Assembly: GCA_009746045.1 (NCBI GenBank)
Contig: RPFO01000114.1
Coordinates: 64,001-128,000, forward strand
DNA from: Mesostigma viride
Lineage: Eukaryota; Streptophyta; Mesostigmatophyceae; Mesostigmatales; Mesostigmataceae
Reading direction: 5' to 3'
Length of the DNA stretch: 64,000 nucleotides
Below, piece after piece: positions 1,777 to 32,053 of this stretch; within the stretch, counting starts at the first letter, position 1, and every line of letters begins with the position of its first letter. The position numbers and the translations under genes were made by a program. The notes beneath the pieces are model-generated. The model was given only the letters and a program-made list of their open reading frames with translations. It searched no databases and was not told where the DNA came from.

Positions 1777-1801
1777 GGCCGGGCCCACTTCGAATGTTCC
1801 G
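1777..1801 (+). repeat. Left terminal inverted repeat of giant element
   Basis: 25-bp end, perfect inverse complement of 32,029-32,053, preceded by ATGA (1,773-1,776). It contains internal palindromes GGGCCC and TTCGAA. Confidence 0.8.
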
Positions 1802-1805
1802 AAAA

Positions 1806-1928
1806 GTGTGACACTTTTCGTCGTTTTTTTAACTTCGTAACAAACTACTCTTTCCCGCCGGGCCGCGTGTGACACTTTTTGTCGTTTTTTTAATTTCGTG
1901 ACTAACTACTCTTTCCCGTCGGTCCGCG
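1806..1928 (+). repeat. Two 61-bp subterminal direct repeats
   Basis: Two tandem copies (about 1,806-1,866 and 1,867-1,928), each GTGTGACACTTTT.GTCG, a T-run, AA.TTCGT, then AACTACTCTTTCCCG. They lie directly inside the left inverted repeat, where transposase-binding repeats are usually found. The right end has one related GTGTGACACTTTTC at about 31,998-32,012. Confidence 0.7.
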
Positions 1929-2177
1929 TGCGCTTTTTGATTGCCTGCAGGTGGCACGAAATTTTCGACCGGAGTGTTTCGGCATTACAAGTTTCTCGAT
2001 ACCCTGATGGATTGGTACATTCCTAGTCGACTAGAGGACCATGTTGAGAAGAGTTAATCGACGAAGCTAGTAGTACTTTCAACCATCAAATGGTGGGTAT
2101 ACCCACCCCCATAATTTTATTGAATCGATTAATAATGCAAATTTACACATTTGACCAACGCAAAATGTTGCATGGAA

Positions 2178-2687
2178 TTAATCATCGATTATATTTGCCA
2201 AATGGGACCGGCATTCACTTTTCCTGGAGAAATGACCCCCATCCATCGATCTCAATGTCACGAAACTTGTACGCTCCCTTGTACAAGTCCCCCACGAAAT
2301 TTGGAGGCTCGTTGGAAAATTGTTTGGGGCCCATACGGCCCCACCTATTTCCGCCGCATTCAAGAACTCATGCTGGGCCTCAGCCCGGAGGCGCACAGCC
2401 GAGACATTGGGCGAAATTTCCGTGCCCTCCTTCTGGAGGCATTGCACCACCCTGGCCTTACCCGGAACACGGGGGGCAGGCGCCAAATCCGAATCTGGGG
2501 GCATCAGGTCGATCATCCCGTTTCCGAACGCAATGACACCTGAACCCCAACCTCCAAACGGTCCCCGCAGGGAGCGTGGGAAGTCGTGGGGGGGGGAGTC
2601 GATTTCAACAAACATGTTGGCCGCATGCTCCTTTTTATCGACATGCACATATGTATGCTGCGAACCAAAAACATCGGCACGCTCCAT
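2178..2687 (-). CDS. Possible small ORF of the giant element, 169 aa
   Basis: A 169-codon minus-strand frame between the transposase gene and the left terminus, in the same orientation as the transposase. Its ATG context (ACGATGG) is acceptable. The protein has no motif I recognise. Overlapping plus-strand frames of 136 and 148 codons weaken the case. A palindrome of the intronic type lies about 75 bp upstream (2,762-2,784), so this might instead be a further 3' exon; a TTCGCAG acceptor-like site lies at its 5' end. Treat as hypothetical. Confidence 0.3.
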   Translation of the reverse strand: MERADVFGSQHTYVHVDKKEHAANMFVEIDSPPHDFPRSLRGPFGGWGSGVIAFGNGMIDLMPPDSDLAPAPRVPGKARVVQCLQKEGTEISPNVSAVRLRAEAQHEFLNAAEIGGAVWAPNNFPTSLQISWGTCTRERTSFVTLRSMDGGHFSRKSECRSHLANIIDD

Positions 2688-2761
2688 CGTAAAAGTGAGT
2701 TTGATGGCTAAGTTGCGTGTGAGAAAATGATTTCAGCAAAGCCCGGTCCGGACTGTCGTAT

Positions 2762-2784
2762 GGGTGGCGCTGCGGAGCGTCCCC
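2762..2784. repeat. GGGTGGC..GCGTCCCC palindrome
   Basis: A copy of the element-wide hairpin motif (GGGTGGCGCTGCGGAGCGTC); a second copy is at 3,263-3,286, just after the transposase stop codon. Confidence 0.7.
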
Positions 2785-3292: not shown

Positions 3293-6200
3293 TTAAGCCG
3301 GTGGCAGCCCCTCCGGGGCTTGCTGGTTGCGTACAAGAGCGGTTAGCCACGCGTCAAGCTCCTTGCTCATATTAACGTAGGCTTGCCTTTGGTTGCCAAG
3401 GACCATGCACTGGAGCGGAAGCCGAGCAGCGGAGATGCACAGATAGCAATCGACCAGGTCGGCTGGGCGGGACTCCGGCCAATCAGCCAAATCCAGAGTA
3501 AAATGCAGGGGGTCATGCATATCTCGCTTCCACAGCCGAACCGCAAGAACTGCGTGGCCGGGCAAGAAAATCTCCTTCTGCCGTCCGTTTTGTCCCTCAA
3601 CCCACCTAACCTCGATCCTCCTTCTCCAGCACTGAGGCCTCCCTCACCACCTGCATCACCCAGAAAGGGTGGGCGGAATTGTGGTTCACGTCCTCTCTGT
3701 CTGAAGGAACTGCGATGTAATCATACATGCGCATCTGCCTGCCAATGGCATCCCTTTGATCCTTCAGCAGTTCCGCCCGCGTCAGCTGGCGAACCGGAGG
3801 GATGGGCTGCGTTGGCGGCATTAGGCGGAAAGTTTTCATTGTTTGGCCCTCATCGTTAAATTCCTCGATATGTGTCCACTCGGTCCGGCACTCCTCCCAC
3901 CTGTTAGCTAGGCAGGCTGGGCAGTAGCACGAAAAACGCCTCATCATCAGGAGCCCCGGGTCAGACTTGTCCAGGCGCCACCAGTGCGCTTGCTTGATGG
4001 CCTCGACACGCGTCGGTATCATACGGGCGCCGGAGTCGAGGTCCTGCAATAAGGTAGAATGTCAGAAACGGAAAGTTCGTATGTGTCAATAGATCAAGTA
4101 CACATCAAGGGTCACTCTGCAGAGATACCCCTTTAAAAGTGCTTTGCATGCATTTTTCCCTATATAAGACGCTAATTCAGTTAACGTAAAGGATTTACGT
4201 TAGATGGATAGAGATTGTTACGCTCTTTCCAGCGGCACCTTGAACGCCTCATTTGGTTAAGGAACGTAAAAGATATGACGTTTCCTAGGCTGTGCCGACA
4301 GTACCCGGCGCGCCACTGTGGGCGCGTACGGACACAGGATGTACAAGTGTCACTTTGATAGTCCGCAGGACGTTGACAGGACTTGTACAGGACTTGATGG
4401 TCAATTGATAGGTAGGCGCACTGTAGCGCGCCAGGACCTATGAGACAATTGATGCTGACTAGTGTACGGATAGGTCCACAGGACTAGCCGTATGGACAAT
4501 TGATAGATCTGCGCGCCAAAGGCGTGCCAGAGTCTGTGTAATCAATTGATTGACAGTTCAGCTGTGACAGTGCAGCTGAATACTTGGACGCGTCCCTAGT
4601 AAGCTATATGAGTGACTTGGTCACACCGGGACGCTAGTTCTTGCGTGCACGTTCTCTTGGCACTGCGACCCTGTCGTCTGTGCTGCGTGCAGTCTTGGAA
4701 GTGACGTGACTTACGTCTGTGTTTCCTGATTGTTAATAAAGGCAACTTCCTGCAAGAACCATGGCGGAATTCGTGGCATTCTTACCCTCACAACTCGTAT
4801 TACACGCTCTGTCAAAAAGATGCCAAATTCGGAAGAATTTCGGATTCCGGACGATGAGGAAATAGCCGCTCCGCCGGCTGGTTCTTCGTCAAGACCGACG
4901 GTGCCGTCGTGGCAGCAATTGCTCGACGAAGTAACGGTCTCGCTCGACGAGCTTCATCGTCAGCAGCGTGCAGCTCACGCATTGCTCGGGGATAACCCCG
5001 AGGACCCCGATTTGCCAGCACTGGTGCCGGCAATCCGCAACCTGTTGGACCAGATTCGAAACATTTTATCGACATTTACGGTCCAGGTGCGGGGAGGTTT
5101 GCGGTCGGTGACCGAAGTCACGACTGCCATTGAGGAGTTGGACAACGTCCTCTCTTCACTCACCGGTTACCAGAGAAACCTGCAAAACTGGGCATCGCTA
5201 CGCACGGGGGGCGCGCCGGCGGTGTCGACAAATTTGTTTCAGGATCTCGCGCTGTTATCGCTGCTCACTCGCGGCGTACGCAGTCGCGAGCGCCAGGTTT
5301 TAATTAACCTGGTGGCATTTCTCGCCTCTGTGCGAGAGTGGATTCCCGCGGGGTGGGAATTATTGACGATCTTTACACATCCTCTGCGCCTCGTCGCGCG
5401 TCGGCGCGTCGCAACTTACGCGGCGGGGAGCACGCCGGTTTTAATTCATACCGGTGCAGGTCCGGAGCTGGATATGGAGGATCGTGAGTTCGTATACACG
5501 TACTGCGACTTCAGGGGCCTTGACTACTAGTCGGCCTAATTTTCTTCTGCAGTACTCGTCGACATTTTTTTGTCGAATTTTCAGCGGCAATTCGCGGGGC
5601 GGCAGCGACACCGGCGCAGGCGGCAGTGGCGACACAAAAATTTTGTACATATTTTCTGCTGCTTTGTTAAGGTGTTCTTTGAATAGCTGGTAGTGCAGGA
5701 TGGCTGAGGGACGCCGTAGCAAGGGTCCAGCCAGTGGGAATAATAATGGGGGTGCTGGTAGTGGAACCGCTCACGTAGATGACGTGGGGCTTACCGGAGA
5801 GATTACCAACCTTCCTCACAATAATAATAATGCACAAGCTATTCATGGCTTTGATCTTACCACACAGGGTCTTTTAATTGTCAATCAGTTGCAGCCTGTA
5901 ACCTCAGACTCCAAGCCTAAGCAGGCTGAAGAGTTTGTGGAGGGATTGGAAGGGTTCCCTAGCTTGTACGGTGGTACAAATTACTATCAAATCTGGATAG
6001 GCAGTAGCACTTTTGGCAAGTGTACTGACCAGATTAAGGACCTAACCAGGGAGTGCAAAAAGGCCAATAAGGCCTGGGCACTGTACGTGGCTGAGCTGAA
6101 GGAGCTGCTGGAGGACCAAGAAGAAGTGGCATCCATTGGCAGGACAAATACCAAGGGTGGGAGGTCAAGGGGGACCTGATCCAGAACTTTCTCAACTATT

Positions 6201-9200
6201 GTAAGATGGTTGAGGAGGGCAGGGCTCACGGCTTTAATGTCGCTGATAACATAGCCCTAACCAACTGGCTCAAGGTTTCTGGGCTGGATAAGGCGACACG
6301 TGGCTCCTTAAAAGTCATGTGTGCCCCACACTCTACCCTGAAGGCCTACAAGGTCATCATTAAACAAGCACTCGAGGCAGAGGAGCTGTTTGAGGGTGGA
6401 GTGCCAGCAGTGAAGGCTACCCAGGCAGGCGGGCGTACCCAGGGTGGCTCCAAGACGTCTGAGGCTGACCGAAGCCAAGGAGGGCGTAGGGGCAACCATC
6501 ACAAGCGCAAGGGAGATCATTCACCTGATTCTGACAGGAGGTCACACTCCAAGTCGGTGTTCAGGCGGGTGGGTGGTCAGCCCAAGCAGGGCAACGCGTC
6601 TGACAATGGGGGCAGTGGCCAGGGCAAGTCCAAGATACAATGCTACCTGTGCAAGGGGTGGGGGCACATCAAGAAGGAGTGTCCCAGCTTCAAGAAGTCC
6701 CAGGGCCAGGGCAGCAACAAGAATAACAACAACAACAAGAAGAACAACAACAAGTCCCAGGCAGGCCAGCCTTCAAAGGGCAGTCAGCAAGAAGACAACA
6801 AGGAGCAGTGACTGTCTGAGGCAACCCCTACACACCTTAATTCACCCAAGGGGGAGGCCAGGTGCTCCAATGCAGATTTTATATCTGGGCAACAAGAGGG
6901 TGATCTCCAGGTTCAGTGTGGCCCCAGGTCACCTGGAGAGGTACAGGTTCCTATGAAGACGTCCTTGACAGCTGATGCAGCTGTAAGTATGTCTGACCCT
7001 ATGCATCCTCGTGCTGGGCACGAGGGTGGACCTCTCATTTTGAGAGAAACCAATGTACAACCACAGAGGGGTGTGAAGGCCTCTGGTGGTATGCATGTGG
7101 TCCCTGCTGGCGGTCCAGGTGTTGGGCATGAGCAGGGTGACTCAGGCTCTGAGTCAGAACAGGATGGAAGTCAGCATGGTGATGCTGGACAACCTGACAG
7201 CACAGTCCTGACTGTGCCAGGGACTGCTTCCTCTGTGTACCAGGAGTTGGGTGCCCGAATCCACAACATGTTTGGGCATGCCACTTCTCTGTCAAACAAC
7301 TTTGCCTTCCGTATGGGCAGGGCACCCCTTCTTAAGGCGTGTCAGCAAGCTGCCTCACGGTGTAAGTGCCAGTTGTCCTCCAACAAGCCCAGGAAATCAC
7401 ATGCCAAAGCTCTACCTCAGAGCATTGGTGATCTGCAGTGTGATATCCAACACATCAGGGGCATGCAACTGTTGGTGTGCGTGGACAGGTACACGAAATA
7501 CAAGGTGCTGGAGCATTTACCTTCTATGAAGAACAGGTACTTGCTGGCTGCCCTGCAGAATGTAAGAGCCAAGTTTCCTACCACAAGGATCCAGGTGGAC
7601 ATGCAGTTTCAGCATCTCAAGGGTGATCCTACCCTTCCTGAGTTGCTGGTTACACCTAGGGAGGCTCATGGGCAGCAGGGTGCTATCGAGAGGGCAATCC
7701 AGGAGGTCAAGAAATTGATCATCTCTGAAGACTGGGTACCCTTGTCTGCACCTGCACTTGTCAGGAGTGCATGGCTGAGGAACGTGGAGCAGCAGCTGAA
7801 CAGCAGGGTTAACTTCTACTATGATGGAGTTGCTGTCAGCCCAATGGGTCTATATCATGGCCTGTGCCCACCACATGTGCTGGAGGGCTGGAAACATGCT
7901 GCACATGTCACCTTTGCCAAGCTGAGGGAGAAGGACCGGGGTTGGAAGATGCTGGAGCCACAAGTGGGTCAGAAGGTCCTAGCTTGGAAGGAACCTAGCC
8001 TTTATGGCAAACGTGGTAGCTGGAGTCCTGGGGTGGTTACCCAGGTTGATGAAGCTAGCCACGCATGCTTGGTCAGCATGGAGGACGAACCAAAGCATGT
8101 ACACCGGCTGAGTTGGTCATATGTCAAGCCTAACCTGATGAATGAGGGCAGTCAGGCACAAGGCTCACAGGATCTGCAGGATTTTCAGGTCCCAGGTGAC
8201 ATCACTGACGCAACGACCACATCTGTTGCAGGGGAATCTGTCAGCCCTGGCCAGGTTGCAGAGGTACTTGTTGAACAGGCTGCAAGGTCAACAGCTGGGG
8301 AGTCAACTGTCAAGCCCAAGGCACTAACCAAGCCCAGGGGGACAAGTTTGGCTGGATTGATTGGGGCTCTACAAAGGGCCAAGAAGCAGCCCAAGGTAGC
8401 CAAGCTCAGGTGGCATGGCAATCTGGGGCTGGACACTGCCTTAGAGGTAGACACTAATTCTCAGGTCTCCATTATTGGGACCAGGGCTGCAGCAGGGTAC
8501 AGCATGTCTGAACCCAGCTATCAGTTTGTGTCTGACTTCAGTGGCGGGGTACACGTGAAGGTACTGGGTGAGGTATTCATTCCTATCCTTGGACAGGACA
8601 CTGCTTTTTGTGTCTTGGAGGGCTATCAAGGACCTGCTCTTCTGGGGCAGAATTTCCTATGCCAGGATGGGGTAGTGATCACGTCCTCTCTCCTGACTAA
8701 GGAAGGGGCTGGTCAGGTCCCACTGATTAATTTCAGGACCACTCACCTATCACGTGCAGTAACCAGGACGGTTAAGCGTGTGCAAGTGTGCCAGGGGCAG
8801 GAGCCCTTGGTTGATGACCTCATACTGCCAGCTGCTAGTCATCCAAGCAGTTTGGGCATTGGTCCTCACTCACTTGCTGGACACAGCCCTATCAACTACC
8901 AAGGCCTGGTGAAGCTCATGTCCTCTCCCATTATGTGTCCCCAGGTCACACTGGGTCTGATTAAATCTGGGGAGGACTGGATCTCCAAGAAATGCGTGGA
9001 ACCTGTCAATGACCTGCCTCCTGCACGACGTCTACTCAAGCTCAAGTTTGTCATCAAGATGAAGGAGGTGGACGGGGTCAAGGTACCACATGTCAGGCCA
9101 GTGCTGAATGAGTTCAAGGGTACTGGTGAGTGCACTGCTGAGGAGTTGTATACCCCTGGCATGCTGCATGATACTTGGAGGCTGCTGCTGTGTGTCTTTC

Positions 9201-12200
9201 TAGGCCTTCTCAACAAGGGCTTGGACTATGGCTCAGTGGTGATAGACTTCAAGAGGGCATTTCTGGAGGGTGATGCAGATGTGGCACAGGAAAAGTGGGA
9301 GGGCAAGACGCCTTTCTATGTTAGGGTGCCTGCTGTATGGAAAAGGGACATCCACACGGAGTTCCTTAAAATCCTCAAGGGCCTGGAGGGCCTGAGGTCA
9401 AGTCCAATAATCTGGAGGGAGACTCTCAACCGTTTCCTGAAGGAGCATTGCAACTTGAAGGTCTCTCCTGTAGACCCCTGTCTGTTTCTGGGGCAATGGG
9501 AAGGCCTGCCAGTGTATGCTTCGCTGCACGGGGATGACCTACATCTGATAGCTCCCACGTCGTGGCTTAAGGAGCTGATCTCCATCATTAAGTCCAAGTT
9601 TCCTCTGGGTAGGGAGCAATGGCAGGTGGAGAATGAGCCTCTGCTGTTTGTGGGCATGGAGGCCACACTGGTGAAGAAGGGAGGGGAGTGGCGTATGCTG
9701 CTGGTGGGGGGCAATGACTATCAAGAGACCCTCATTAGCAAGCTTCCTCCAACCATCACACAGGCACTGTGTCCCATGGTGAGGGGCATGGTTGCTTGGG
9801 TGGCAGGCATTTCCAGGCCAGACCTTATGGTCATAGCCAGGTTGCCTGATGACATGCTGGTGGAGCTAGGGTCTGCCAAGGTGGCTGATCAGGTCAGGGC
9901 TTCATCTGGCATTCTGTTGTCTGCAGTGGATTTATCACAACCCATTTGCATGGAGCTGTATGTGGATAGCTCAATGGACAGCAGGCAGGTCTCCAAGGTC
10001 AGGGGCAGGGCTGCAGGGCTCTTTGTGCTCAGACAGGAAGGCCTGGGGAGTTTGGTGAGCTGGTTTAGTCGCCTGCACAAACGGGTGGCTGTCAGCAGTG
10101 ATGTGGCAGAATGCAGGGCTATTTGTGAAGGCATTCACACAAGCCTTTATCTGAAGGAGTTGCTTCATCAGATGACTTCTAACACTCCTTGGCCACTTCA
10201 GGTTACCACTCTTCTAAAAACAGACTCCATGGGGATGGTGCAGTTTGTGCACAGGCAGATGGCCAGAAGTAGGGACTTGGATTATCTCCTTCTTAAGGAG
10301 TTGTCCTCCTTGGCCAATATTGAGCATATCCCTGGGGTTGACAATCCTGCTGATGCTTTGACCAAGCTAGTGCAGAAGGCAGCAGTGCAATACAAGGTTC
10401 TTCAGTCTCTGATGGACCCATCTCAGCAAGCTGTCTAAGCTGGTGCATGGTTATAGGGCATTGGAGAGCAGATTGTGTGGTAGTGTCAGCATTGTGACTG
10501 GCATAATACCTGTATTTTAGTCTGTACTAAGGCTCATGGACCATGGTACACTCACTCTGATTTTAATCAGGATACAGCCAGGTTTTGGCTGGGGTTCATG
10601 CTGTTGACTACACAAGGTTGACAGGTCCATTACAGACCATGTATTCTATTTTAAAAGAAATGTATATTTGTACATACCTCTCACAATGGTCTGGGAACCT
10701 TTATTCTGGGGTTTATAGGGCGGGGTTCGATTCCCTGGTATTATGTTTCTACAAGCTGGCCTGTTCAGGTGTTTGCCTGTTCAGACTTCCCTAGTTCCCC
10801 AGGGCAGGATTTAATTGTTGCCTATGTGTTTCATTTTGTCATTTGTTTGCTGTGGCAGTTTACCATCTGGCAAGTAGACGGGCGCCGTAAGACGGGCGCC
10901 AATAGACCCCTGTTGAGAGAATGACAGGCAAACTATTGTAATACGCCTTACTTTGTCAAGTGGTATTTTAATTGTCATGGATTTATTGTACTTATATTGA
11001 ATATGTACTGGGTTTTATGGGATTAGTATCTGGGATTAATGTAACTCACCGCCAGAAGGTCATTGTACTGGAGGCTCTACCGAGGTGATGGGATTAATTC
11101 CTGGAGAAGACCTCATAGAATTAACCTGTATGTATTTAATTTTGTGTGCTTCTAATATCTGGTGGTACTCTGTAATGCCACTTCCATAGGTTTTTATCCA
11201 TTTCTCATGGAATGGTTTTCCCTGTGGCAGATCTGTTTCTTTTCCAGTTCCTTAAAAGAAAGGGCTGGGGGAATGGCAATGGCCATTAAAGACATCTGTT
11301 CAAGCTTCAAGCTGGAGTGAAGGACATTTCAAGCTACTTCAAGGGTCCCTGGCAGGGGATGTGATCCCTAAAGAAAAGAAGGGATTGGAGTTAACGTAAA
11401 GGATTTACGTTAGATGGATAGAGATTGTTACGCTCTTTCCAACGGCACCTTGAACGCCTCATTTGGTTAAGGAACGTAAAAGTTATGACGTTTCCTAGGC
11501 TGTGCCGACAGTACCCGGCGCGCCACTGTGGGCGCGTACGGACACAGGATGTACAAGTGTCACTTTGATAGTCCGCAGGACGTTGACAGGACTTGTACAG
11601 GACTTGATGGTCAATTGATAGGTAGGCGCACTGTAGCGCGCCAGGACCTATGAGACAATTGATGCTGAGCTAGTGTACGGATAGGTCCACAGGACTAGCC
11701 GTATGGACAATTGATAGATCTGCGCGCCAAAGGCGTGCCAGAGTCTGTGTAATCAATTGATTGACAGTTCAGCTGTGACAGTGCAGCTGAATACTTGGAC
11801 GCGTCCCTAGTAAGCTATATGAGTGACTTGGTCACACCGGGACGCTAGTTCTTGCGTGCACGTTCTCTTGGCACTGCGACCCTGTCGTCTGTGCTGCGTG
11901 CAGTCTTGGAAGTGACGTGACTTACGTCTGTGTTTCCTGATTGTTAATAAAGGCAACTTCCTGCAAGAACCATGGCGGAATTCGTGGCATTCTTACCCTC
12001 ACAACTAATTCATACCAGTTCTTTTAGCATTATCATATAATAAAATGCAAATGGGCAAAAGGTCACTCTGCAGAGATACCTTAATCAAGTTCAAGAAAAA
12101 TTGAGTTTCGCACCTCAGGAAAATGAAAGAAATGACGGTGGACGCCCTCTGCCCGAGCGCGGGCCGACTCCCTGCTCGTGGTTTTGCCTCCTTCCCAGCT

Positions 12201-16189: not shown

Positions 16190-16483
16190 TGTAGTCCTCA
16201 GCCAGCGATATGGCTTGTTTTTTCGTGTTGGTCCTCAGCCAGCGACATGACTTCTTTTTTCTGGTTGGTTCTCGGCCAGCGATATGCCTTCTTTTTAAGG
16301 GTTGGTCCTTAGCCAGCGACATGGCATCTGTTTTCGTGTTGGTCCTCAGCCAGCGATATGCCTTCTTTTTTAGGGTTGGTCCTCAGCCAGCAATATATTT
16401 TCTTTTTTCGCGTTGGTCCTCAGCCAGCGACACGGCTTCTTTTTTCTGGTTGGTTCTCGGCCAGCGCTATGCCTTCTTTTTAA
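16190..16483 (+). repeat. 37-bp minisatellite, part 1
   Basis: About eight 37-bp units with core GGTCCTCAGCCAGCGA followed by a T-run. The array resumes at 18,375, so the two parts were one array before the insertion at 16,484. Confidence 0.9.
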
Positions 16484-18370: not shown

Positions 18371-18374
18371 TTAA

Positions 18375-18657
18375 GGGTTGGTCCTCAGCCAGCGACATGG
18401 CTTCTGTTTTCGTGTTGGTCCTCAGCCAGCGATATGCCTTCTTTTTTAGGGTTGGTCCTCAGCCAGCAATATATTTTCTTTTTTCGTGTTGGTCCTCAGC
18501 CAGCGACACGGCTTCTTTTTTCTGGTTGGTTCTCGGCGAGCGACCAGAGTATTTTTTCGTATTGGTCCTCAGCCAGCTAAATGTTTTCTTTTTTCGTGTT
18601 GGTCCTCAGCCAGCCATATGGCTTCTTTTTTCGTGTTGGTCCTCAGCCAGCGATATG
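18375..18657 (+). repeat. 37-bp minisatellite, part 2
   Basis: Seven to eight further units of the array at 16,190-16,483, running directly into the 30-bp satellite. Confidence 0.9.
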
Positions 18658-21467
18658 TCCACCATCCATGCATGCCAGCCACCCACCACCATCATCCATG
18701 CATGCCAGCACCCCACCACCATCATCCATGCATGCCAGCCACCCACCACCATCATCCATGCATGCCAGCCACCCACCACCACCATCCGTGCATGCCAGCA
18801 CCCCACCGCCACCATCCATGCATGCCAGCACCCCACCACCACCATCCATGCATGCCAGCACCCCACCACCATCATCCATGCATGCCAGCACCCCACCACC
18901 ATCATCCATGCGTGCCAGCCACCCACCACCACCATCCATGCATGCCAGCACCCCACCGCCACCATCCATGCATGCCAGCACCCCACCACCACCATCCATG
19001 CGTGCCAGCCACCCACCACCACCATCCGTGCATGCCAGCACCCCACCACCACCATCCATGCACATGCCAGCACCCCACCACCATCATCCATGCATGCCAG
19101 CACCCCACCACCATCATCCATGCGTGCCAGCCACCCACCACCACCATCCATGCATGCCAGCACCCCACCGCCACCATCCATGCATGCCAGCACCCCACCA
19201 CCACCATCCATGCATGCCAGCACCCCACCACCATCATCCATGCATGCCAGCACCCCACCACCATCATCCATGCGTGCCAGCCACCCACCACCACCATCCA
19301 TGCATGCCAGCACCCCATGCACCGCCACCATCCATGCATGCCAGCACCCCACCGCCACCATCCATGCATGCCAGCCACCCACCACCATCATCCATGCATG
19401 CCAGCCACCCACCACCATCATCCATGCATGCCAGCCACCCACCACCACCATCCGTGCATGCCAGCACCCCACCGCCACCATCCATGCATGCCAGCACCCC
19501 ACCACCACCATCCATGCATGCCAGCCACCCACCACCATCATCCATGCATGCCAGCACCCCACCACCACCATCCATGCGTGCCAGCCACCCACCACCACCA
19601 TCCATGCATGCCAGCACCCACCACCACCATCCATGCATGCCAGCACCCCACCACCATCATCCATGCATGCCAGCACCCCACCACCATCATCCATGCGTGC
19701 CAGCCACCCACCACCACCATCCATGCATGCCAGCACCCCACCGCCACCATCCATGCATGCCAGCACCCCACCACCACCATCCATGCGTGCCAGCCACCCA
19801 CCACCACCATCCGTGCATGCCAGCACCCCACCACCACCATCCATGCATGCCAGCACCCCACCACCATCATCCATGCATGCCAGCACCCCACCACCATCAT
19901 CCATGCGTGCCAGCCACCCGCCACCACCATCCATGCATGCCAGCACCCCACCGCCACCATCCATGCATGCCAGCACCCCACCACCACCATCCATGCATGC
20001 CAGCACCCCACCACCATCATCCATGCATGCCAGCACCCCACCACCATCATCCATGCGTGCCAGCCAGAATTTAAAATGGCTTGTGTGAAGAGGGATTGGG
20101 ATTTAGCCGGTGGATATCCTACTTATTACACCGCCACCATCCATGCATGCCAGCACCCCACCACCATCATCCATGCATGCCAGCCACCCACCACCATCAT
20201 CCATGCATGCCAGCCACCCACCACCATCATCCATGCATGCCAGCCACCCACCACCACCATCCGTGCATGCCAGCACCCCACCGCCACCATCCATGCATGC
20301 CAGCACCCCACCACCATCATCCATGCGTGCCAGCCACCCACCACCACCATCCATGCATGCCAGCACCCCACCGCCACCATCCATGCATGCCAGCACCCCA
20401 CCACCATCATCCATGCATCCCAGCCACCCACCACCATCATCCATGCATGCCAGCCACCCACCACCATCATCCATGCATGCCAGCACCCCACCACCATCAT
20501 CCATGCATGCCAGCCACCCACCACCATCATCCATGCATGCCAGCCACCCACCACCATCATCCATGCGTGCCAGCCCACCACCACCACCATCCATGCATGC
20601 CAGCACCCCACCACCACCATCCATGCGTGCCAGCACCCCACCACCACCATCCATGCATGCCAGCACCCCACCACCACCATCCATGCATGCCAGCACCCCA
20701 CCACCATCATCCATGCGTGCCAGCCACCCACCACCACCATCCATGCATGCCAGCACCCCACCGCCACCATCCATGCATGCCAGCCACCCACCACCACCAT
20801 CCGTGCATGCCAGCACCCCACCACCACCATCCATGCATGCCAGCACCCCACCACCATCATCCATGCGTGCCAGCACCCCACCACCACCATCCATGCGTGC
20901 CAGCACCCCACCACCACCATCCATGCATGCCAGCACCCCACCACCACCATCCATGCATGCCAGCACCCCACCACCATCATCCATGCGTGCCAGCACCCCA
21001 CCGCCATCATCCATGCATGCCAGCACCCCACCACCACCATCCATGCGTGCCAGCACCCCACCACCACCATCCATGCATGCCAGCACCCCACCACCACCAT
21101 CCGTGCATGCCAGCACCCCACCACCATCATCCATGCGTGCCAGCCACCCACCACCACCATCCATGCGTGCCAGCACCCCACCACCACCATCCATGCATGC
21201 CAGCACCCCACCACCACCATCCATGCGTGCCAGCACCCCACCACCACCATCCATGCGTGCCAGCACCCCACCACCATCATCCATGCGTGCCAGCCACCCA
21301 CCACCACCATCCATGCATGCCAGCACCCCACCACCACCATCCATGCATGCCAGCACCCCACCACCATCATCCATGCGTGCCAGCCACCCACCACCACCAT
21401 CCATGCATGCCAGCACCCCACCGCCACCATCCATGCATGCCAGCACCCCACCACCACCATCCATGCG
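18658..21467 (+). repeat. 30-bp satellite array, ~90 units
   Basis: Units of 30 bp with core CATCCATGCATGCCAGC followed by ACCCCACC or CACCCACC variants. It is interrupted once at about 20,067-20,130 by a 64-bp unrelated stretch. Variants (CGTGCC, ACCGCC, ACCATC) recur in blocks, suggesting higher-order units. Long His/Pro/Cys frames on both strands follow from the 30-bp period being a multiple of three; I do not call them genes. Confidence 0.95.
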
Positions 21468-21500
21468 TGATTTTTTTGGGGAGTGGTCAGTATTGTTTTT

Positions 21501-22262
21501 GGGTAGGGTCGCTCTGCAGAGTGACCCCTACCCTTGCGCAATGTCGCAGTCTTTGTTTGTAGGGCCGCGCTGCAGAGTGACCCCCTCACAATGCAAATTT
21601 CCATTCATTGTTTGTAGGGTCGCGCTGCAGAGTCACCTTTCCAAGATACGTTATTCAATCACAATTTGTTTGTACGGTCGCGCTGCAGAGTCACCGTTCC
21701 ATGAAATATTTTTATATCATATTTCGTTGGTAGGGTCGCGCTGCAGAGTCACCTTTCCAAGATATGTTATTCAATAACATTTTGTTTGTAGGGTCGCGCT
21801 GCAGAGTCACCTTTCCAAGATACGTTATTCCAGAACATTTTGGTTGTACGGTCGCGCTGCCGAGTCACCATTTCAAGATACGTTATTCAATCACATTTTG
21901 TTTGTAGGGTCGCGCTGCAGAGTCACCTTTCCAAGATACGTTATTCCATAACATTTTGGTTGTACGGTCGCGCTGCCGAGTCACCATTTCAAGATACGTT
22001 ATTCAATCACATTTTGTTTGTAGGGTCGCGCTTCCGAGTCACCCTTTCATGAAATATTATTATACTATATTTTTTTGGTAGGGTCGCGCTGCAGAGTCAC
22101 CCTTCCCCTAACAAGTGGTTCTTATGTCTTATTTTACGGAAGGGTCTCGCTACAGAATAACCCCTTCCCTGACATATGTTACATCTTCGATTTTTTTTTT
22201 CCCCAAACCTGAAACGGATTTCATCCTATTTTCTTCTTAGGGTAGCGCTGCAGAGCCACCCC
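21501..22262 (+). repeat. Tandem array of the GGTCGCGCTGCAGAGTCACC hairpin, ~12 copies
   Basis: About a dozen ~59-bp units of GTAGGGTCGCGCTGCAGAGT plus a TTTCCAAGATACGTTATTC spacer. The first copy (21,501-21,533) is the longest palindrome: GGGTAGGGTCGC on the left and ACCCCTACCC on the right of CTCTGCAGAG. The same motif occurs singly in introns of both genes of the element. Confidence 0.9.
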
Positions 22263-22331: not shown

Positions 22332-25300
22332 AGGGAAGAACAACAGAAGGAGAGGGAAGTTCAGCTTCAGAAGGAAAAGGAGGAGCTGGAGAAGGCCTCC
22401 TTGCTTCAGAAGGAAAAGGAGGAGCAGGAGAGGGCCTCTTTGCTGCAGAAGGGTAAAGAGGTGGAGAGGGCCACCTATGTCGACAAGCTCAAGTCGACGA
22501 GCGAGTCTCCTAAGTATAGTACGCCTCCCGCCTCTCCGCCCAAGGGCGTAGAGGAGTTTCCTCCTCTGTGCGCTGGGGCTGCGCCAAGCTCCGTGGAGGC
22601 GTCGGCCTCCAAATCTCCCCAGCGGCCCGCACCTGAGGCACAGGCTGCCGGCGCTGGGTCCAGCTCCGTTGAGCGTTCTCCACAGTCTCCCCAGCGGCCC
22701 GCCATCCACAAGGAGTCCGCCGTCCACGGGGCGTCGACCTCAAACTCGCCAAGGTCCGCCCCCGCCGAGGTGGTTACCTCGAAGCCCAGCTCGCCGCCCA
22801 AGTCTCCTCCAAGGGCCCACCACGAGGCGTCGACCTCGAAGCCAAGCTCGCCGCCCAAGTCTCCTCCAAGGGCCCACCACGAGGCGTCGACCTCGAAGGT
22901 CAGCACGTCGCCCAGGTCTCCTCCAAGGGCCCACCACGAGGCGTCGACCTCGAAGGTCAGCACGTCGCCCAGGTCTCCTCCAAGGTCCCACCACGAGGCG
23001 TCGACCTCACAGCCAAGCTCGAAGCCCGCGTCTCCCCAAAGCTCCCCTCCAAAGAAGGGAGCGACCTCCAAGTCCCGATCACCGCCCAAGTCGCCTTCAA
23101 ATCTCCAGGTCGGAAGTCGCCCCCCAAGCGCCGATCGCCACCAAAGTCAACAAACTCATCTCCTGCGAGGAGCCGCTCCCCACAGGCAAGGAAGAAAGCA
23201 AGAGCGGAATGGGAGGAGAAGGAGGATGACCATGAGCGGTTCCTGCGTGATCTGCAGAAGAACATTGACCTCCTGATGAGCATGGAGGACAGGGACAAGG
23301 CAGACCCAAGGCCACTGGAGGATCTTCCGGAGGAGGAAAGAAAGAGAAGGAATGACCGCATGGCACTTCTGACTTCTTATCTGGATCAGGCAACGCAGCA
23401 CGCCGAAGATCTGGTGAATCTGGAGAAAAAGGACAAGGAACGGAAGGCCGCCCAGGAGCTCCTGGAAAGGGAGCGGAGGGAATGGGTGAAGAAGGAAAGG
23501 GCAGGCAGAGGCGAAGCAGGCAGAGATGGAAGCTGCGAAGTTGGAGGAGGCGGAGCGCAGGAAGAAGAGGGCGTCGTGGGAGCGGGACGAAAAGGAGAGA
23601 AAGGCGAATGAGGAAAGGAAAAAGAAGGACGAGGAGGCAAAGGCGAAGAGGAAGGTGCAGGAGGAGGGGAAGAGGATGATGGAGGCGGGTGTGGCGGCAC
23701 GCCTGAAATACCAAGCCAAACTTGAGGAGGAGCGCAGGAAGGCGCAGGCTGCAGAAAAGTCGGCGGGGGACTCGGAGAAGGAGGGTACGGAGCCGTCTCA
23801 GGTGAGAAACAGTTTTTACCCCCATTAGTGTGCGTGTTTTTTTCATCGGTTTCGTTATTCCTTATCTCTGCTAAGCTCGTTCGACCATGAATGGGTCATT
23901 TCGCAGAGTGACCCTAACCTGAACCAACAAGTATGCTTTTCCCTGTTGTTTTAATTTCAGAGGAAGCGGGGGGCAGACGAAAAGAAAACAGAGGATCCCA
24001 AGAAGAGCGGGACAACAACGGAGGTGAGCGATAAGTGATCCTGTGTTTTTCGCCTTTGTTCTTCAATTCTGACTTGCCGTTTCCTTCGCATGTGTGATTA
24101 ATTTATGGAGGGTCATTTCGCAGAGTGACCCTAAACTTTTTCAACGAGTATGCTTTTCTCTGTCTTGCTGCATCCAGAGGAAGAAAGGGGGAGATGAGCC
24201 AGAGTCTCAGGGGAACGCCGAGGTTGGGAGTGGGGAGGAGAAATTGCGGGTGAGCTAAGATTTTTTCGCCGCTTAATAGTGCATGTCAGTTAGTCCTTCG
24301 TTCTGTTTGAGATTTTTTTATGAAGGGTCACTTCGCAGAGTGACCCTAAACTTTTTTTCCGATTATGCTTTTTTTTTCGTTTTGTGGACCTGTGTGCAGC
24401 CGATCCAGTTGAGGGGCTTGGAAACTTGGAAGTCATGGTTGACGACTTACGAAAAACATCTGAACGATGACGCCAAGTCGTTCTTGAGCACCTTTGTGTC
24501 GAAGGAGATCGAAGTTGCGATCGATGACGGTGTCTGGCATGAGAGGATGGAAGTAATACATGATATGGCCAGGCCTGATGAGATAATGAACCCTTGGAGT
24601 GATCCAACACTTCGTGATCTTTTGTTCGAAGTCATGGGGCGGAGCCTTAGAGGCAAAAGGTTGAAGGGGGAAGAAATGGCATCTCTCTTCGACACCTTCG
24701 AGTTGCTTGTTACCGAGTGCGGGTCGAATATACCCGACGCAGCGGATGTTACAGCTTATGTTCCTCGAAGCCTGCTCGTCTGGATCAAGCTGTCTTGTGC
24801 GACCAAACAGTACTGCAAGGACACGAGACAGCACCCATTGTCACACGAGTATTTTGACATCATCATATCTGTCTGCAGGTGGGAAATGTACCAGGTCCTA
24901 GAGCAGGGGAAGACAGGTGAGGATTGGGACACCTCCCCGCTGACGGAAATGGATGTCAATCTGCTCTTGAAGAAAGGGTTCAAGGCTGCACAGTTCGACT
25001 GGGATGTCTTCGGCGACTTTCTGGTCGCCATGGACCACTCGGTATCTCCCGAGTTGTTCAGGGCTGGTTCGGAAGTGATTGAAGATTTGGATGGGGTTAG
25101 ATCGCACTTCCTTTCGTCGTATTCAGTGTGGATGGCGCAGTTTAGGGTGAACCCAGACCCTATTCTTCCGAGTCGAGCTGTTGAATTGTTTCTTCAGTTG
25201 TGCGAGGATGAGATCCTGCGTTTTCGTCAGAGTGGGGAGTTCGACATGGCCGGACAGTATGAGCCCCCACGAAAGGAGGTTGTCGCATGGCTTGAGTACA

Positions 25301-28300
25301 AGGGGATCGACGACTGCCTGTCGTTAGTGACGGCGAACATAAACGAGAAATCATGGAGTCAGGACATGCTATCTCACTTGTTCTTCGGACGTTTTTCGAA
25401 AACGAACTGAGCCACACAACTCCATCTGAGATGTGGCCGATCGGACAAGTGTTGCGGGAGTGGAGATTTGACATTGAGGTAATTATTGACATTTGTGTAC
25501 ATTTTTATTCAGTCCGTTTAGATTAGTGTTGTGTATTTCTTTTGTTGAAAATTGTTACTAACGATGAACGCATTTCTTGCTCTCCTTCCCGCCAGGAGGG
25601 TGACATTCCACGTTTTGAGGGACAAAGTCCTTCAGCGTGGAAACCGGAGGTAAGCAAATGCCGCTAAAGGTTCGGGGTCGATTTGTGAAGATAGGATATT
25701 CAAGAAATAGTTCCTGTTTTGACTGACTTTGTATATTTATCTGAACGCACGTTTCGTCTTGCAGGATGACGATCAACCTTTTGAAGAGGTCGAAGGGATG
25801 GGGACGGAGAACGTAGAGGTAGGAAATTTGTTTCATTTTACTGTTAAAGCTTAGGGTTGGGGTCGTCGCAGAGCCACGTTAAAACAAAACTAATGCTCGT
25901 TTTTTTTATGTCATCGTCTGAATTATTATTATTTTTTTTTCATGCAGGAGGTGGACGAGGAGGAAGAGGAGGAGAAGGAGCAGGAGGTGGACGAGGAGGA
26001 AGAGGAGGAGGAGCACGAGGAGGAAGAGGAGGAGGAGGAAGAAAATGAGCCCGAGCCAACTCCGAAGGGGAAGGGGAAGGCAAAGGTTTGTACAATGATT
26101 TTTAAGTTTTTAACGCTGAAGGTCGCGCTGCAGAGCTAGGATGCCAGAGTTCAGATTACTCTTCTTAATACATTTCGCTTCATGTGTATGTTGTGTGTTG
26201 TTGGTATACCTTCCAGCAGGCTAAAAAAAAGGCGACGACGACACTCGAAGCAGCTCATCAGAAGCTTATTGCGAGAAAGAATAAGGTGCAGACTATCTGT
26301 GATATTGGCGACCTCATCCTAGGCAATCCCCCTAAGGATGTTACGATGGGTGCCGGGGAGTTTCGCAAGTATCTCACCCAACTGCGCGTTGAGGCGGCGG
26401 CCGATTTCGCAATGCAATCTGACACCTTCAACGGTGACCTGGCCTATGATTTTGTCAACCAAGTCAAGTCCAAGGGCACCGAAAAGTTCAAGTGGAAACC
26501 AAAGGCGTACACGGAGGCGAAGGTGGACAAGGTCATCAAGTTCATGAAGTTGGATCTCAAGAGAAGGGATCGTGAACGGGCGAAGCTGCTTGAGGGTCAG
26601 GCAAAAGCGTCCAAAAAGAAGAGGGATGCGGATAAAAAGGAGAAGGGGAAGGATAAGGGGGTGGAAATGGAGGATGACGCGGCCGGGGGGAGAAGGGCGG
26701 GAAGGGAAAGAAGGGGAAGAAGGCGGGAGAAAAGGAAGAGGTGCGTTTTTTGCGGAATTTAGATTTAGAGGGGTAGCTCTGTGGAGTGAACCTTTTTACC
26801 TTCTCCGTGCTTTGCACCCTATTCGGTATTTTTTGTCTGCACGCCGACTATTTGCAAACGTTAAACTATTTATTGTTTTCCTGTCTCATCTTCGTCAATG
26901 CCTTCCTCCAGGGTGGCGAGGGGGAGAAAGGCGGAAAAGGAAAGAAGGGGAAGAAGGCGGGAGAAAAGGAAGCGGTGCGTTTTTGGTGATTTAGATTCAG
27001 AGGGGTAGCTCCGTGGAGTGACCCTTTTTACCTTCTGTGTTCTTAGCACCCTACTCTGAGATTTTCCTACGCTCGCGGACTATATGCATACGTTAAACTA
27101 TTTATTGCTTTCTTGTCTCATGTTCGTCAATGCCTTCGTTCAGGGTGCCGAGGGGGAAGGAGACGGTGACGGAAGGTTGGCCGGCAATGATGCCGTTTTT
27201 GCACTCGTCAAGGAGATGCTTAACTACGTCGAAGCCAGGGGCAAGGCGCCGGCGTCGGATATATTAAAGTGGCCTACCTTCTCCCCTTTTCTTGAGCTTC
27301 TGAAAGCACTTTCAAAGCTCTTCAAGGAGGGGATCCTGACGAGTAGTGGAAAGGTGGACAAGGAGCCGATCATCAAAGAGTGGAAGATGGCAACGACCGT
27401 GGACTCCGAGAAGGAGATCAGGGACAAAGCCATTCGGGACGCGAATGCTGTGCGGGAATCCCGTTGGATTCGACCGAGTGACTTCATCGATACCGGTTGC
27501 AATAGCATGCGCATTCACACCGTCAACGGGCTGATTTTGCCTGACAACATGAGGCAGCGGTTGCTAAGCGATGAGGTGTTCAGGGAGAACGGGCGCATCT
27601 TGCTGAATGCAAAGACAAACAGTTTGCATTTTAAGGTGTGCATCCCTGTGTGGCAGTTCGCCTTTCAAGCGCTTGCGGAAACCAAGCCAAGCCTCTTCGC
27701 CAAACACATCACGTCCTCTGGCCCTTACCGGGATTGGCTGAAAAAATGCCATGGCGCTAGGACTGACGCGGAGTTCGTGGGCTCGCGTTACTTTCGCCCC
27801 TTGTCCGACAAGGAGATTGAGAAGTATCTTGGAACCAAGTCCACCGCTTCTTTCCTCAAGAGAGGTGTTGAGTTCCGGACCTATGCACGAGTCGGGGAAC
27901 AAGACGACGTTCTGCCCTTTGATTTTCAACCAAGGGAGGTCTTCAGCCTAATAAGCCAGGCCTCCTTAAAGGCATTCGACCCAAGATTTCACGAGGAACA
28001 TCCTGATGGCGAATATCTCGTTCTTCGATATGCGGTGGTCGACGGAAACCACTATTTCAAGGGTTTAAAGTCTTTCAAGCAATTGGAGGGGGAATGGACG
28101 CCCGGTGTGACACATGTTAAGAAACTAATGTGTGAAGGGGGGGCAGCGTCTGAGAACGCGAAGGACAGTGCCGCGGCGGCTAAACTTTTCTCATCCCTCA
28201 TGGAACAATTCCATACTGGGTACGGGGGAACGAACGTCATTCTGCTTCGGGGGGCCGACCTTCTTCCAAATTGGGACGAGTGTAAAAAGTTCCCGGAAAT

Positions 28301-31300
28301 ATCTGTAAGTGGTAGTTCTATCTATGGCAATGGTGACGCTGCAGTTCCACCACTTCGTCGTGTTATGTCGAGTAAGGGTCGCACTGTGGAGTGACCATGT
28401 CAAAAGTCTTCCTTTATCATGCATTATAAATGCGGGAAGTCGCACACAGAAACGACATTGGCAGTCAAACTCTCATCCCGACATATTTCTGGGGTGGTTT
28501 CGCAGAGTGACCCTAACTTACCGATTTCGGCGCTGAAGACCATTTTTCGCGCTCCCGTGCGTTCATAACGTCACGCTGCAAGTCGACCCTTGAATTGTTC
28601 TTGTGTGTCAATTTTTCGTTCCTCTGTTCGTGACAGGAGGTTGGGAAGAAGAAGCTGGATCGCCTATTCGAAATCTCCAAGGGCGCCAATGCCGAAGATC
28701 AGGCGGTAGCGGATCGGACGCTTGGGCAGGCGCTTCTGGATGTTTGGAATTACAACAGGCTGTACTTGCACGGCGTCGTGAAGCAGGGCAAAGGGCATTT
28801 TATTCCCGATGGCCATTACACGAACCTGCTGGCGTACATCCTGCCGGCCACCAAACAATCAGTCGGGAGGGAAGGGAGTTTGGAGGGGAGTAAGGAGGAT
28901 AAGGGGGAGTTGAGGGAGGAAGAAGGCGAGCGGAAAAAAAACAAGGCCCAACCTTCCCAAATTTCAAATTACAATCGAGTTCTGGCGAACACCTTCCTGC
29001 GCCTCACAAAGGCCAGGCCGGATGATGAGAATTCAGTCACACCAGCTTCTGAGGAGACTATGACTCTCAGATGCCGGTTCGCTAACGCCGAGGGCACCAA
29101 GAAGGGGCAAAAGGTGTCCTGGACGTCTGTAAGGAACCTGGCGTCGTTTCCGATGATGGACGCTGTGTGTGAATGCATCATGAGTGGGGAGGTTGGGCCC
29201 GAAAAGCTGTCAAAGTTGGTGGAGTTGGCCAAGGACGTACTTGAGTGCGTTCGCCAATTCATCCTTATTAAGTTTCAGGAAAAGCCCGACTTGGATGGCG
29301 AATGTAAGGGGGGGGCTGATATGGAGTACAAGGCTTCTCGCTTATTTGAAGAGGTGTTCGGCTTACGACTACTTGGGCGGATGCCAAGGAACAAGGACGT
29401 CGTCGATCGATTCCTTGCATTTTGGGAGAAGGCCGTCATCATCACGCGCAATGTCGCCTACCTCTTAAAGTCCGAAGGTCTTGCCAATCACCTAAGGATT
29501 CCGAGAAAGGATCTGATGGATAGCAAAATCGATCTAGTGGATCTCCTCGACAAAACCGCTCCGAACTTCAGCATGAAGGGTTCGCACGGCCTTCTGGACA
29601 AGGACTTGTATCTCCACTATCAAAAAAAGATGGAAGGAGGGGAAGGGAAGAAGGAGGCGGTGGTTGAGGCGAAGGAGAAAGTTGCAGGGAAAGGGGGGGA
29701 GAAGGTGGAAGAGAAAAGTGCTGAGCCGATTGAGTATAACTGGCGCAGCATTTCCTGGGATCAGATGACCGTCTGGTATTCTTCTCATAGTCTCCCTAAA
29801 GGCGGCCCTGACAGGAAGAAGGCATTTGTGAGGAGGGTGGCGGCGGAGGTGGCGGTGGGCGACGGTGAGGGCTTCCCATCCACTTTCGCGAGGCAAGACG
29901 ATGGCCTGACGCCATTACCGTGCTGTAGAATCCTGAATTTGGATGGTGAGTTCGGCCGCAAGTGGACGTCCTTCAAGGACTTCTGGTGGGGTGACCATGA
30001 CCTCTTTATGGTTCCTCCAAAAAAGACAACTGTCGAACGCAATTCCGGTTACCACAGGAAGCTTATCGAGCTAGCGACGCAGTTTTTCGAGGAGTTGCGT
30101 CCCATCGTGGTCGTTTTTGGCGGAAAGAAGTCATTGGATGGCTTCGAAGACTTACTGGTTCGGATGGGGAAGATGCCTGACGTCTCGTGGACGTCATTGG
30201 CGAAGAAGAGGAAGGCTGAGGATGACGCGGAAGGAGATTCGGATGGGGACGAGGGAGGCGAGGGACAGGGTGGAAAGGAAGGAGGGTCGACTCGCAGAGC
30301 GACGTCTACGGGGGGAGAGAAGTCGTCACCGCAGAAGACGTCTAAGGGGGGAGAGAAGTCGTCCCGCAGAAGACGTCTAAGGGGGGAGAGAAGTCGTCCC
30401 CGCAGAAGACGTCTAAGGGGGGAGAGAAGTCGTCACCGCAGAAGACGTCTAAGGGGGGAGAGAAGTCGTCACCGCAGAAGACGCGGGACAAAGGGAAGGG
30501 TGGGCAGCGGCCGTCTGTCCAGCCGCAGCCGGAGTCACACCCTTCCAAAAAGCTTCGAAAGGCAGTTGTTCAAATCTCGGACGACGAAGATGAAGCTGAG
30601 CCTGGCGCTTCTGCCCGGCCTGTCGCTCCTTCCGCGCCTACGCGCGTTTCAAAGTATCCCAAGAAAGAGCTTCGAAGGCAGCCAGTCGAGTCATCATCAT
30701 CCTCCTCCTCCGAGGAGGAGGAGGAGGAGGAGGGGGAGGAGGGGGAGGAGGGGGAGGAGGGGACGAGAGTGATGATGATGATGAGAGGAGGAGGAGGAGG
30801 AGGAGGAGGAGGAGGAGGAGGAGGAGGAGGAGGAGGAGGAGGAGGAGGAGGAGGAGGAGGAGGAGGAGGAGGGAGGAGGGGAGGAGGAGGAGGAGGGGGA
30901 TGACGACGAGGACGACGAGGAGGGGGATGACGACGAGGAGGAGGAAGATGGAGGGAGGCGAAGGGGTGATGGAAGGGCAAGGGGTGGAGGGGCAGGAGGG
31001 TCAACTCGCAGAGCGACGTCTGAGGGGAGGAAGAAGCCTGCCGCGCCCTCCAAGGCTTCCGGCTCGTCTCGACCCAAGACAGCTGCTACTCGAGCTCAGA
31101 AAGGAATAACAAAGGGTGAGGAAATCGCTGTTTTGGTCGTGGCATGTATCCTGAATTTTTTTTTTTATTCGTTTGCAATCTATCTACGTTGACTTTAGCC
31201 CGTCGTTGATGTGCCGATTGGTTACGCGCAGGTAATGAAGTGGTGCGGGCGAACGCTGCGGTGGGCTTCGGTCCTGCAGCTAAACTTGCTGCTCAGTCTG

Positions 31301-31761
31301 AAGGGGTGGAAGCGAATGCGCAGAGCCAAGAGCCTTATGAGAAGCCTACGCTGTGGATGAGACTTATGGACGGGGAACAGAAACACGGAGCACCGGAGTG
31401 CTTCTGGATTGATGGGTGGGCCGAGAACACCATGAGAAGGGCCAATGCGAGTAGGGAAAAGCAAAAGTATACCAAGTTACAGGAGGTGAAGTTGTACGGG
31501 CAGGTAGGTGGATACGATCGGAAATGGAGGGACGTTTGCATGAAGTTTTTTCCAGAAGAGACAGAGGGCGGAAAGTTGCATAGGGGCAAGTTCTGGATGC
31601 CTTTGGACTATGTGAAGAGGGTGGTGACTCTGATGGACGGAAAGAGTTGGAATGATGTGGCAAAGTGGGCACCTGCGATGTCCATCGATCCAAAGAGGAA
31701 GAAGTCCAAAACAGACCAGCAGAAATTGGAAGCAGAAGCAAGGAGCAAGAATAAGAAGTGA
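22332..31761 (+). CDS. Large multi-exon gene of giant element, function unknown
   Basis: Inferred exons with GT..AG borders: 22,332-23,801; 23,961-24,023; 24,178-24,249; 24,400-25,478; 25,596-25,649; 25,765-25,818; 25,948-26,085; 26,220-26,740; 26,912-26,974; 27,144-28,304; 28,637-31,115; 31,232-31,761. The product is about 2,500 aa. It begins (visible part) with a coiled coil (QLQKEKEEL type), then Ser/Pro repeats (SPPKSPPRAHHEAST), a second coiled coil, several acidic or Lys-rich short exons and three globular parts (24.4-25.5, 27.1-28.3, 28.6-30.2 kb). It ends with a Glu-rich low-complexity tract and a final domain with Lys-rich end. I recognise no enzyme motif. Frame slips near 23,100, 23,510, 25,385, 26,690 and 30,365, mostly at homopolymers, suggest decay or read errors. 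It may encode the element's second mobility protein. The true start exon is not located. Confidence 0.6.
23893..24346. repeat. Three intronic palindromes in successive introns
   Basis: GGGTCATTTCGCAGAGTGAC at about 23,893-23,914 and 24,110-24,131, and GGGTCACTTCGCAGAGTGAC at 24,325-24,346, one per intron. Others in this gene: 26,121-26,140, 26,771-26,792, 27,003-27,023, 28,375-28,395 and 28,493-28,513. Confidence 0.85.
26741..27143 (+). repeat. Tandem duplication of an intron-exon unit
   Basis: Intron 26,741-26,911 and intron 26,975-27,143 are closely similar along their length (GTGCGTTTTT start, GGGGTAGCT palindrome, shared GTTAAACTATTTATTG). The exon between them (26,912-26,974) resembles the end of the preceding exon (GGKGKKGKKAGEKE). 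One intron plus a Lys-rich exon was duplicated in tandem. Confidence 0.8.
30705..30960 (+). repeat. (GAG/GGA)n low-complexity tract within exon
   Basis: Purine-only GAG/GGA repeat within the 28,637-31,115 exon, encoding poly-Glu or poly-Gly depending on frame. Length is prone to slippage and to assembly error. Confidence 0.9.
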
Positions 31762-32028
31762 CGTTCGAAGACTTTATTTTATGTTGGACGAGTCTAAATA
31801 GTAAATTCAGTCGACTCCGTCTCAAGTGCGACGAATGTATCCATGATATTCTTCAATGAAACAATGCAATTTCACGCTAATGTAAAGTTTTTATGTCACA
31901 CGAGACTTACAATGAGATAAATACCCACAAATTGTAATATTTACGTGAAATTTATACGTTCGCAAGCCAAAATTCAAGATTTTTGCCTCAAAATTGAAGG
32001 AAAAGTGTCACACACTTGGCTTGGACCG
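31762..32028. other. 3' flank of the large gene, non-coding
   Basis: AT-rich sequence between the stop at 31,759-31,761 and the right inverted repeat. No ORF. It includes a GTGTCACAC subterminal motif resembling the left-end repeats. Confidence 0.5.
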
Positions 32029-32053
32029 CGGAACATTCGAAGTGGGCCCGGCC
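32029..32053 (-). repeat. Right terminal inverted repeat of giant element
   Basis: Exact inverse complement of 1,777-1,801, followed by the target duplication ATGA (32,054-32,057). Confidence 0.8.

Follow-up and report, generated by a model that had tools for sequence, protein, structure and literature searches.

Within a stretch of 64,000 nucleotides of Mesostigma viride (contig RPFO01000114.1, positions 64,001 to 128,000; hereafter the window), the interval 1777 to 32053 is almost certainly a single mobile element, and very probably a DDE/D cut-and-paste transposon. The explanation that best accounts for the data as a whole, and that we regard as quite probable, is that it belongs to a multi-copy cut-and-paste family whose core measures about 20 kb, and in which two divergent genes encode a transposase and a large second protein (gene 2). 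All genome searches were run on the assembly from which the window derives (439.9 Mb, 2,243 contigs).

The ends of the element were described, in a reading made from the sequence only, as exact 25-bp inverted repeats adjoining ATGA, and this is what is found. The left terminal inverted repeat (TIR; 1777..1801, plus strand) and the right one (32029..32053, minus strand) are complementary at 25 of 25 positions and enclose an element of 30,277 bp. The target site duplication (TSD), 4-bp ATGA, is read at 1773..1776 and at 32054..32057. Subterminal sequences are AAAAGTGTGACACTTTT (1802..1818), also present at the matching end of seven other full copies, and AAAAGTGTCACAC (32001..32013), read in the window. 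A genome search with the TIR, as proposed in the sequence-only reading, returned 374 forward and 384 reverse matches at up to 3 mismatches (758 in all), and none for a reversed-pattern control. If half of the ends equals the number of copies, this family, hereafter family A, may count about 380 members. Among the 100 exact TIR places listed, neighbours less than 100 kb apart form 26 pairs in +/- orientation, at distances of 19.6-84.5 kb, two in -/+ orientation, and none on the same strand. Exact 4-bp TSDs, differing between loci, flank 23 of the 25 +/- pairs whose flanks were read. Empty sites, also proposed as a check, were sought with a query of 400 bases in which the window flanks, themselves a repeat, are joined by one ATGA. 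End-to-end matches at 96-97% were obtained in all of the 40 places scored (193 candidates were first found), and the five paralogous junctions fetched all retain a lone ATGA, and nothing else. The exactness of these sites implies that the 30,277 bp were inserted as a single unit, or grew as such, in one place. TIRs, TSDs and precise empty sites, the combination expected of DDE/D cut-and-paste transposition, are all present here.

According to a different view, two unrelated loci would lie between two TIRs by chance or by nested insertion. Nested foreign elements do sit in the window copy, but both genes are found at the same places in 7/7 other full copies, the same order is kept in a second family, 60% identical in its transposase, and the empty site is exact. 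This alternative, whose probability is next to nil, is ruled out by the other copies together with the empty sites. The earlier view that a single element spans the interval thus stands: paired copies occur elsewhere, the ends are not confined to small unrelated repeats, and no allelic sequence placed the two genes in separate loci.

The size of about 30 kb first attributed to the element holds for the window copy, which is indeed giant, but not for the core, the rest being nested inserts. The seven other full family A copies measure 19,619-23,061 bp, and each of them covers every exon tested, for the transposase and for gene 2 alike. The window copy reaches 30.3 kb because it hosts a Copia-type long terminal repeat (LTR) retroelement and a second insert, neither of which is present in any of the seven. 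The LTR element (about 4180..12004, plus strand), which resides inside transposase intron 3, was recognized by an RVT_2 match below cut-off and by comparison of copies; no difference is seen over the 337 bp of its two end repeats (4459-4795 and 11670-12006). The second insert (16482..18370, limits approximate) was delimited by its absence from the other copies. A 30-bp minisatellite (18564..21470), evident from the window repeats and from copy comparison, separates the two genes. Substitutions in the transposase segment amount to 0-0.1% among the seven other copies, and the window copy is about 1.1% away.

The transposase gene runs on the minus strand in four exons. Exon 1 (14801..14813), placed by comparing spliced frames, provides the start MSRE; exon 2 (13019..14543) the N-terminal region and a Cys-rich cluster; exon 3 (12114..12887) most of the catalytic core, with the motifs HGDWAENY, SDNC and HGKGEVDG; exon 4 (3293..4043) the C-terminal part. 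Exons 2 and 4 are broken in the window copy, whose spliced frame includes 29 stops, and the gene is also broken in copy C1215b. The same four exons, once spliced, are open at 1,018 amino acids in six of the eight copies, at most one residue apart. The splice model is supported by a Mesostigma viride gene model (EukProt, jgi/Mesvir1), equal in length and 100% identical over the part searched. Stops are missing from all 45 genome matches to exon 2 that were scored, in a best-first, and hence biased, list. The protein had been called DDE-like, and structure modelling agrees with a DDE/D-type fold: the predicted core is RNase-H-like, and its strand 1, its strand 4 and the following helix bear acidic residues at their ends, as expected of DDE/D enzymes. 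D581, D665 and D708 are invariant in six sequences, as is E706, and the candidate catalytic triad is D581, D665 and D708 (or E706). The full-length structure model, with a mean pLDDT (predicted local distance difference test) score of 35.8, was left out of the fold search.

The sequence-only reading went further, and proposed a new giant type or superfamily. Giant the element is, but an undescribed superfamily is not established: 4-bp TSDs are a trait of Sola, and the Sola1-1_Ec32 element considered below is a precedent in print. That these giant elements make up a DDE/D transposase superfamily not yet described is to us unlikely, though deserving attention. It would fit the isolation of the protein in databases: the deepest profile search returned only five proteins at an expectation value (E) of up to 10, namely two from Mesostigma, one metagenome fragment, one weak relative (E 1.6e-16) and one non-significant match (E 0.36), while no Pfam family scored above cut-off, and no PHROG or PDB sequence matched. 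Yet, the reach of the word-based search is limited, 4-bp TSDs and DDD-like positions are already known in Sola, and the SDNC and HGK[GA]E.D signatures recur in two further proteins, P0005 and P0006, so that the lineage is not isolated. Among weaker hits, DUF7869 (E 0.12 at full length, 0.036 with exon 3) is below cut-off and is kept as a lead only, and PHROGs at E 0.078 and weaker are not believed. Contig scans confirmed no relatives in viral, bacterial or archaeal contigs.

A sister family, B, made of the copies with transposase P0002, is about 60% identical to family A in this protein, and has TIRs of its own, GGGTGGTCCCACGCGGAATGGGG. These match the genome 237 + 233 times at up to 2 mismatches (control, 1 + 0), and exact 4-bp TSDs flank 9 of 10 pairs. 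Copy C1579 (23 kb read) is collinear with family A in transposase, minisatellite and gene 2, and both genes lie inside a family B TIR pair in C85, C100, C382, C446 and C1. Six of the 27 family B TIR pairs listed are 10.3-10.7 kb long. One such place (C280:165392-175752, 10.3 kb) has no transposase match and, of gene 2, retains no more than part of the last exon; judging from its sequence, it is a non-autonomous family B derivative. A third family has a transposase, P0003, which is 40% identical (C1468). Inverted repeats 7.4 kb apart in one copy were considered as the ends of the P0003 element, but are not proven as such, as the corresponding places near other P0003 copies are arranged otherwise; a 24-mer of these repeats has 904 + 907 = 1,811 genome matches.

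Gene 2 resides on the plus strand. Twelve exons were mapped in the window, for about 2,550 codons in all, so that the size of about 2,500 residues earlier assigned to the product is about right, though not as a single open frame. The first mapped exon (22332..23801) encodes coiled-coil and low-complexity sequence, and more 5' exons possibly lie upstream, unmapped. Exons 2 (23961..24023), 3 (24178..24249), 5 (25596..25649), 6 (25765..25818), 7 (25948..26085, acidic) and 9 (26912..26974) are short. Exons 4 (24400..25478), 8 (26220..26740), 11 (28637..31115, the first 574 codons open) and 12 (31232..31761, including the stop) were defined by mapping and by comparison of families, and exon 10 (27144..28304) is open over 387 residues. 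Between families A and B, identity is 60% in the first 300 residues of exon 11, 57% in exon 10, 54% in exon 12, 50% in exon 8 and 26-33% in exon 4; for exons 1-3, 5-7 and 9, of low complexity, this comparison recovered no counterpart. Thirty of 41 family A gene 2 places have a listed exact TIR no more than 12 kb away, mostly at 3.6-4.5 kb; the other 11 are farther off, or on contigs with no listed exact TIR. Indels between near-identical copies, seen also at window positions 14690-14880 and elsewhere in introns, cluster in the low-complexity exons of gene 2, and hardly occur in the transposase.

Homology searches with gene 2 gave negative results. No Pfam family scored above cut-off in the exons scanned (2, 3, 5, 6, 7 and 9 were not scanned alone), PDB sequences gave no match (best E 0.24 and 0.39), exons 10 and 11 have no homologue at E up to 10 in a large protein set, and exon 10 of either family has no Pfam match up to E 10. 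A RecQ zinc-binding match in exon 11 (E 0.019) is below cut-off and is not believed. The string VVDGNHYFKGLK prompted a ParB-like reading of exon 10, which was discarded: ParB_N (PF02195) matches occur elsewhere only, at no listed gene 2 place. These matches, C2011:422356-422625 (E 5e-33) and C1532:27302-27577 (E 2.5e-11), are bacterial-type genes, perhaps on contaminant or symbiont contigs.

Both families are punctuated, mostly in introns and between genes, by about 30 imperfect sites of a degenerate 22-bp dyad, GGGTCNCNCTGCAGNGNGACCC, scored at up to 5 mismatches over 18 fixed positions. Copy C1106a has 32 dyads (mean 1.1 and maximum 5 in shuffles, which permute neighbouring base pairs and are not a strict control), one family B copy 28 (mean 1.0, maximum 4), and the window element 35, against none in the 33.7 kb of the window outside the element. 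A tandem array of the dyad, with a period of about 58 bp, is found at 21508..22100, on the 5' side of the mapped gene 2 exons. The C280 derivative hosts 23 dyads (shuffle mean 0.4), mostly in two clusters of eleven and ten. The two clusters lie around a central minisatellite, and five further listed pairs fall in the same range of 10.3-10.7 kb.

Dyads could act in RNA, as intron hairpins aiding splicing or made into small RNAs. This is a rather improbable role, although in C1106a they occupy all 3 transposase introns and 8 of the 11 gene 2 introns, which together host 17 of the 32 dyads. Two more lie in exon 11, but 13/32 are outside mapped genes, the 23 of the derivative persist with no transposase match, and half-sites do not covary within a family, which argues against a role as RNA stem. 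Watson-Crick pairs within dyads are 212/319 in family A (shuffle mean 208.7), 172/231 in family B (168.6) and 103/132 in the derivative (104.8), and the hairpin reading was rejected, as within-site pairing is not above shuffles in any of the three. When dyads are pooled, pairs (487/682) do exceed shuffles (mean 453.2, maximum 476), because half-sites shift jointly between families, most clearly at positions 6 and 17. On sequence grounds, the dyad is better read as a putative site for a symmetric DNA-binding protein than as an RNA stem, and that dyads are protein-bound cis sites is an idea to which we incline slightly. The derivative lacks a transposase, yet has kept and multiplied its dyads, which favours a function in cis, either in transposition or in upkeep.

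Several observations weigh against the overall explanation. Exact TSDs are missing in 2/25 family A pairs (C1, ATTA/ACTA; C442, CGGT/GTTT), and a TSD is missing in one of the ten family B pairs (C100). By structure, the transposase core scores highest (Z 11.2) against the PIWI domain of an Argonaute rather than against a transposase, and the top Foldseek row is NurA, with a probability of 0.38. According to the splice model used here, gene 2 has no fully open frame in any of the seven copies in which every exon was located; its indels come without corresponding substitutions and concentrate in exon 8 and other such low-complexity stretches, whereas the transposase frame is preserved. The broken frames may be due to faults in the assembly, to an incorrect splice model or to decay. 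In the 20 kb read of one P0003 copy, which are in part a nested LTR element and in which the ends are unsettled, no gene 2 match (E <0.1) was found, and dyad-like matches are 3 versus 0.9 expected. Finally, the dyad consensus was derived from the same elements later scanned, and the window flanks are therefore a fairer control than shuffles.

In the model proposed, the 1,018-residue transposase would cut at the TIRs by means of its RNase-H-like core, and would join the element ends to target DNA with a 4-bp stagger. Less certainly, dyads would be the binding sites of an element-encoded protein, most likely the large second protein, a pairing of site and binder that we put forward tentatively. 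A protein so bound could bring the ends together for pairing, by compacting the 20-kb element or by bridging it, or else could mark it so as to prevent its silencing. A bolder reading, to be taken as speculative, is that of a new class of giant transposons, in which a DDD-type transposase acts at the ends, a large self-encoded protein recognizes a family-specific dyad, of which introns and spacers hold about 30 copies, and non-autonomous parasites amplify the dyad. Each family has its own version of the dyad, in which the two half-sites have changed symmetrically, as though site and binder coevolved. If true, a eukaryotic transposon would here provide its own coating, similar to that of a centromere or acting against silencing. 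The question addressed is how the ends of a DNA transposon meet when at least 20 kb apart, and why giant transposons carry large genes lacking known domains. Many near-identical copies, intact transposases, a conserved gene 2, a sister family, and a derivative showing which cis DNA is kept make this question amenable to testing, and a sizeable share of the genome of this early-branching streptophyte alga may consist of giant two-gene transposons.

Other features were noted in the window. A piggyBac-type element sits next door, between short inverted arms (32865-36214; open reading frame 33075-35564; DDE_Tnp_1_7, E 4.7e-48). Open frames at 39168-40649 and 62511-63974 look by eye reverse-transcriptase-like (YADD) and integrase-like, and belong to other retroelements; those at 57362-58354 and 53451-54722, of FkbM-type and other methyltransferase look, again by eye, are perhaps host genes.

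Giant DNA transposons of several kinds are known. KDZ (Kyakuja-Dileera-Zisupton) elements have a Pfam transposase model of their own and 8-bp TSDs. The Mesostigma element is likewise giant, but its TSD is 4 bp, and the KDZ model is not among the matches up to E 10 for P0001-P0003. The maximum KDZ size reported is 30.3 kb for Ectocarpus and 31.7 kb for Chlamydomonas, in the part of PMC12477816 drawn on here. The size class of at least 15 kb is shared with Polinton/Maverick and Teratorn (PMC6431247, in part). Nested and neighbouring elements aside, neither the Polinton polymerase (DNA polymerase B) nor protease or packaging genes scored above the Pfam cut-off in the exons scanned. Ginger and retroviral-integrase-like transposons resemble the element in the integrase-like core predicted by structure; 4-bp TSDs occur in Ginger, but Ginger TIRs start with TGT, while those of Mesostigma start with GGCCGG or GGGTGG, and the rve Pfam model does not match the transposase. 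CACTA/EnSpm elements have CACTA ends and a TSD of 2-3 bp, and differ from the Mesostigma element in both respects. The Mesostigma genome papers (PMC6947507, PMC7027972) treat repeats in general terms, with no such element encountered in the portions consulted, and no description of it was found among the literature matches listed, from a search that most subscription journals fall outside.

Sola is a superfamily marked by 4-bp TSDs, and its transposases are said to be of the DDD type, reportedly since Bao et al. 2009. TSDs of 4 bp are found in both family A and family B, and the three invariant acidic positions would fit a DDD triad of this kind. The chances that the element is a giant member of the Sola superfamily, Sola1-like, with an accessory gene unlike the published one, seem to us about even. 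TSDs of 4 bp are documented for Sola2 (PMC3627910, in part). Giant KDZ, EnSpm and Sola-1 elements, in which nested inserts are common, have been described in Ectocarpus, and among them is Sola1-1_Ec32, of 21.5 kb, which carries opposite to the transposase strand a gene for a 1,104-residue protein that combines a ParB-like and a DNA-methyltransferase domain; proteins of this sort, as remarked there, may act on the very transposon that encodes them, by binding and modifying it (PMC12477816, in the same part). Giant size with nested inserts, and a gene opposite to the transposase strand, are thus common to Sola1-1_Ec32 and the Mesostigma element. In contrast, the Mesostigma second protein is about 2,500 residues long, with no Pfam family and no ParB_N match, nor was a methyltransferase among the Pfam matches of the gene 2 exons scanned; dispersed dyads, a feature of the Mesostigma element, are not mentioned for Sola1-1_Ec32 in that part of the source. 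The likeness to Sola is one of description, and Pfam gave no family above cut-off for the transposase. All in all, the likeliest filing of the Mesostigma element is as a Sola-like transposon of giant size that differs in its accessory gene.

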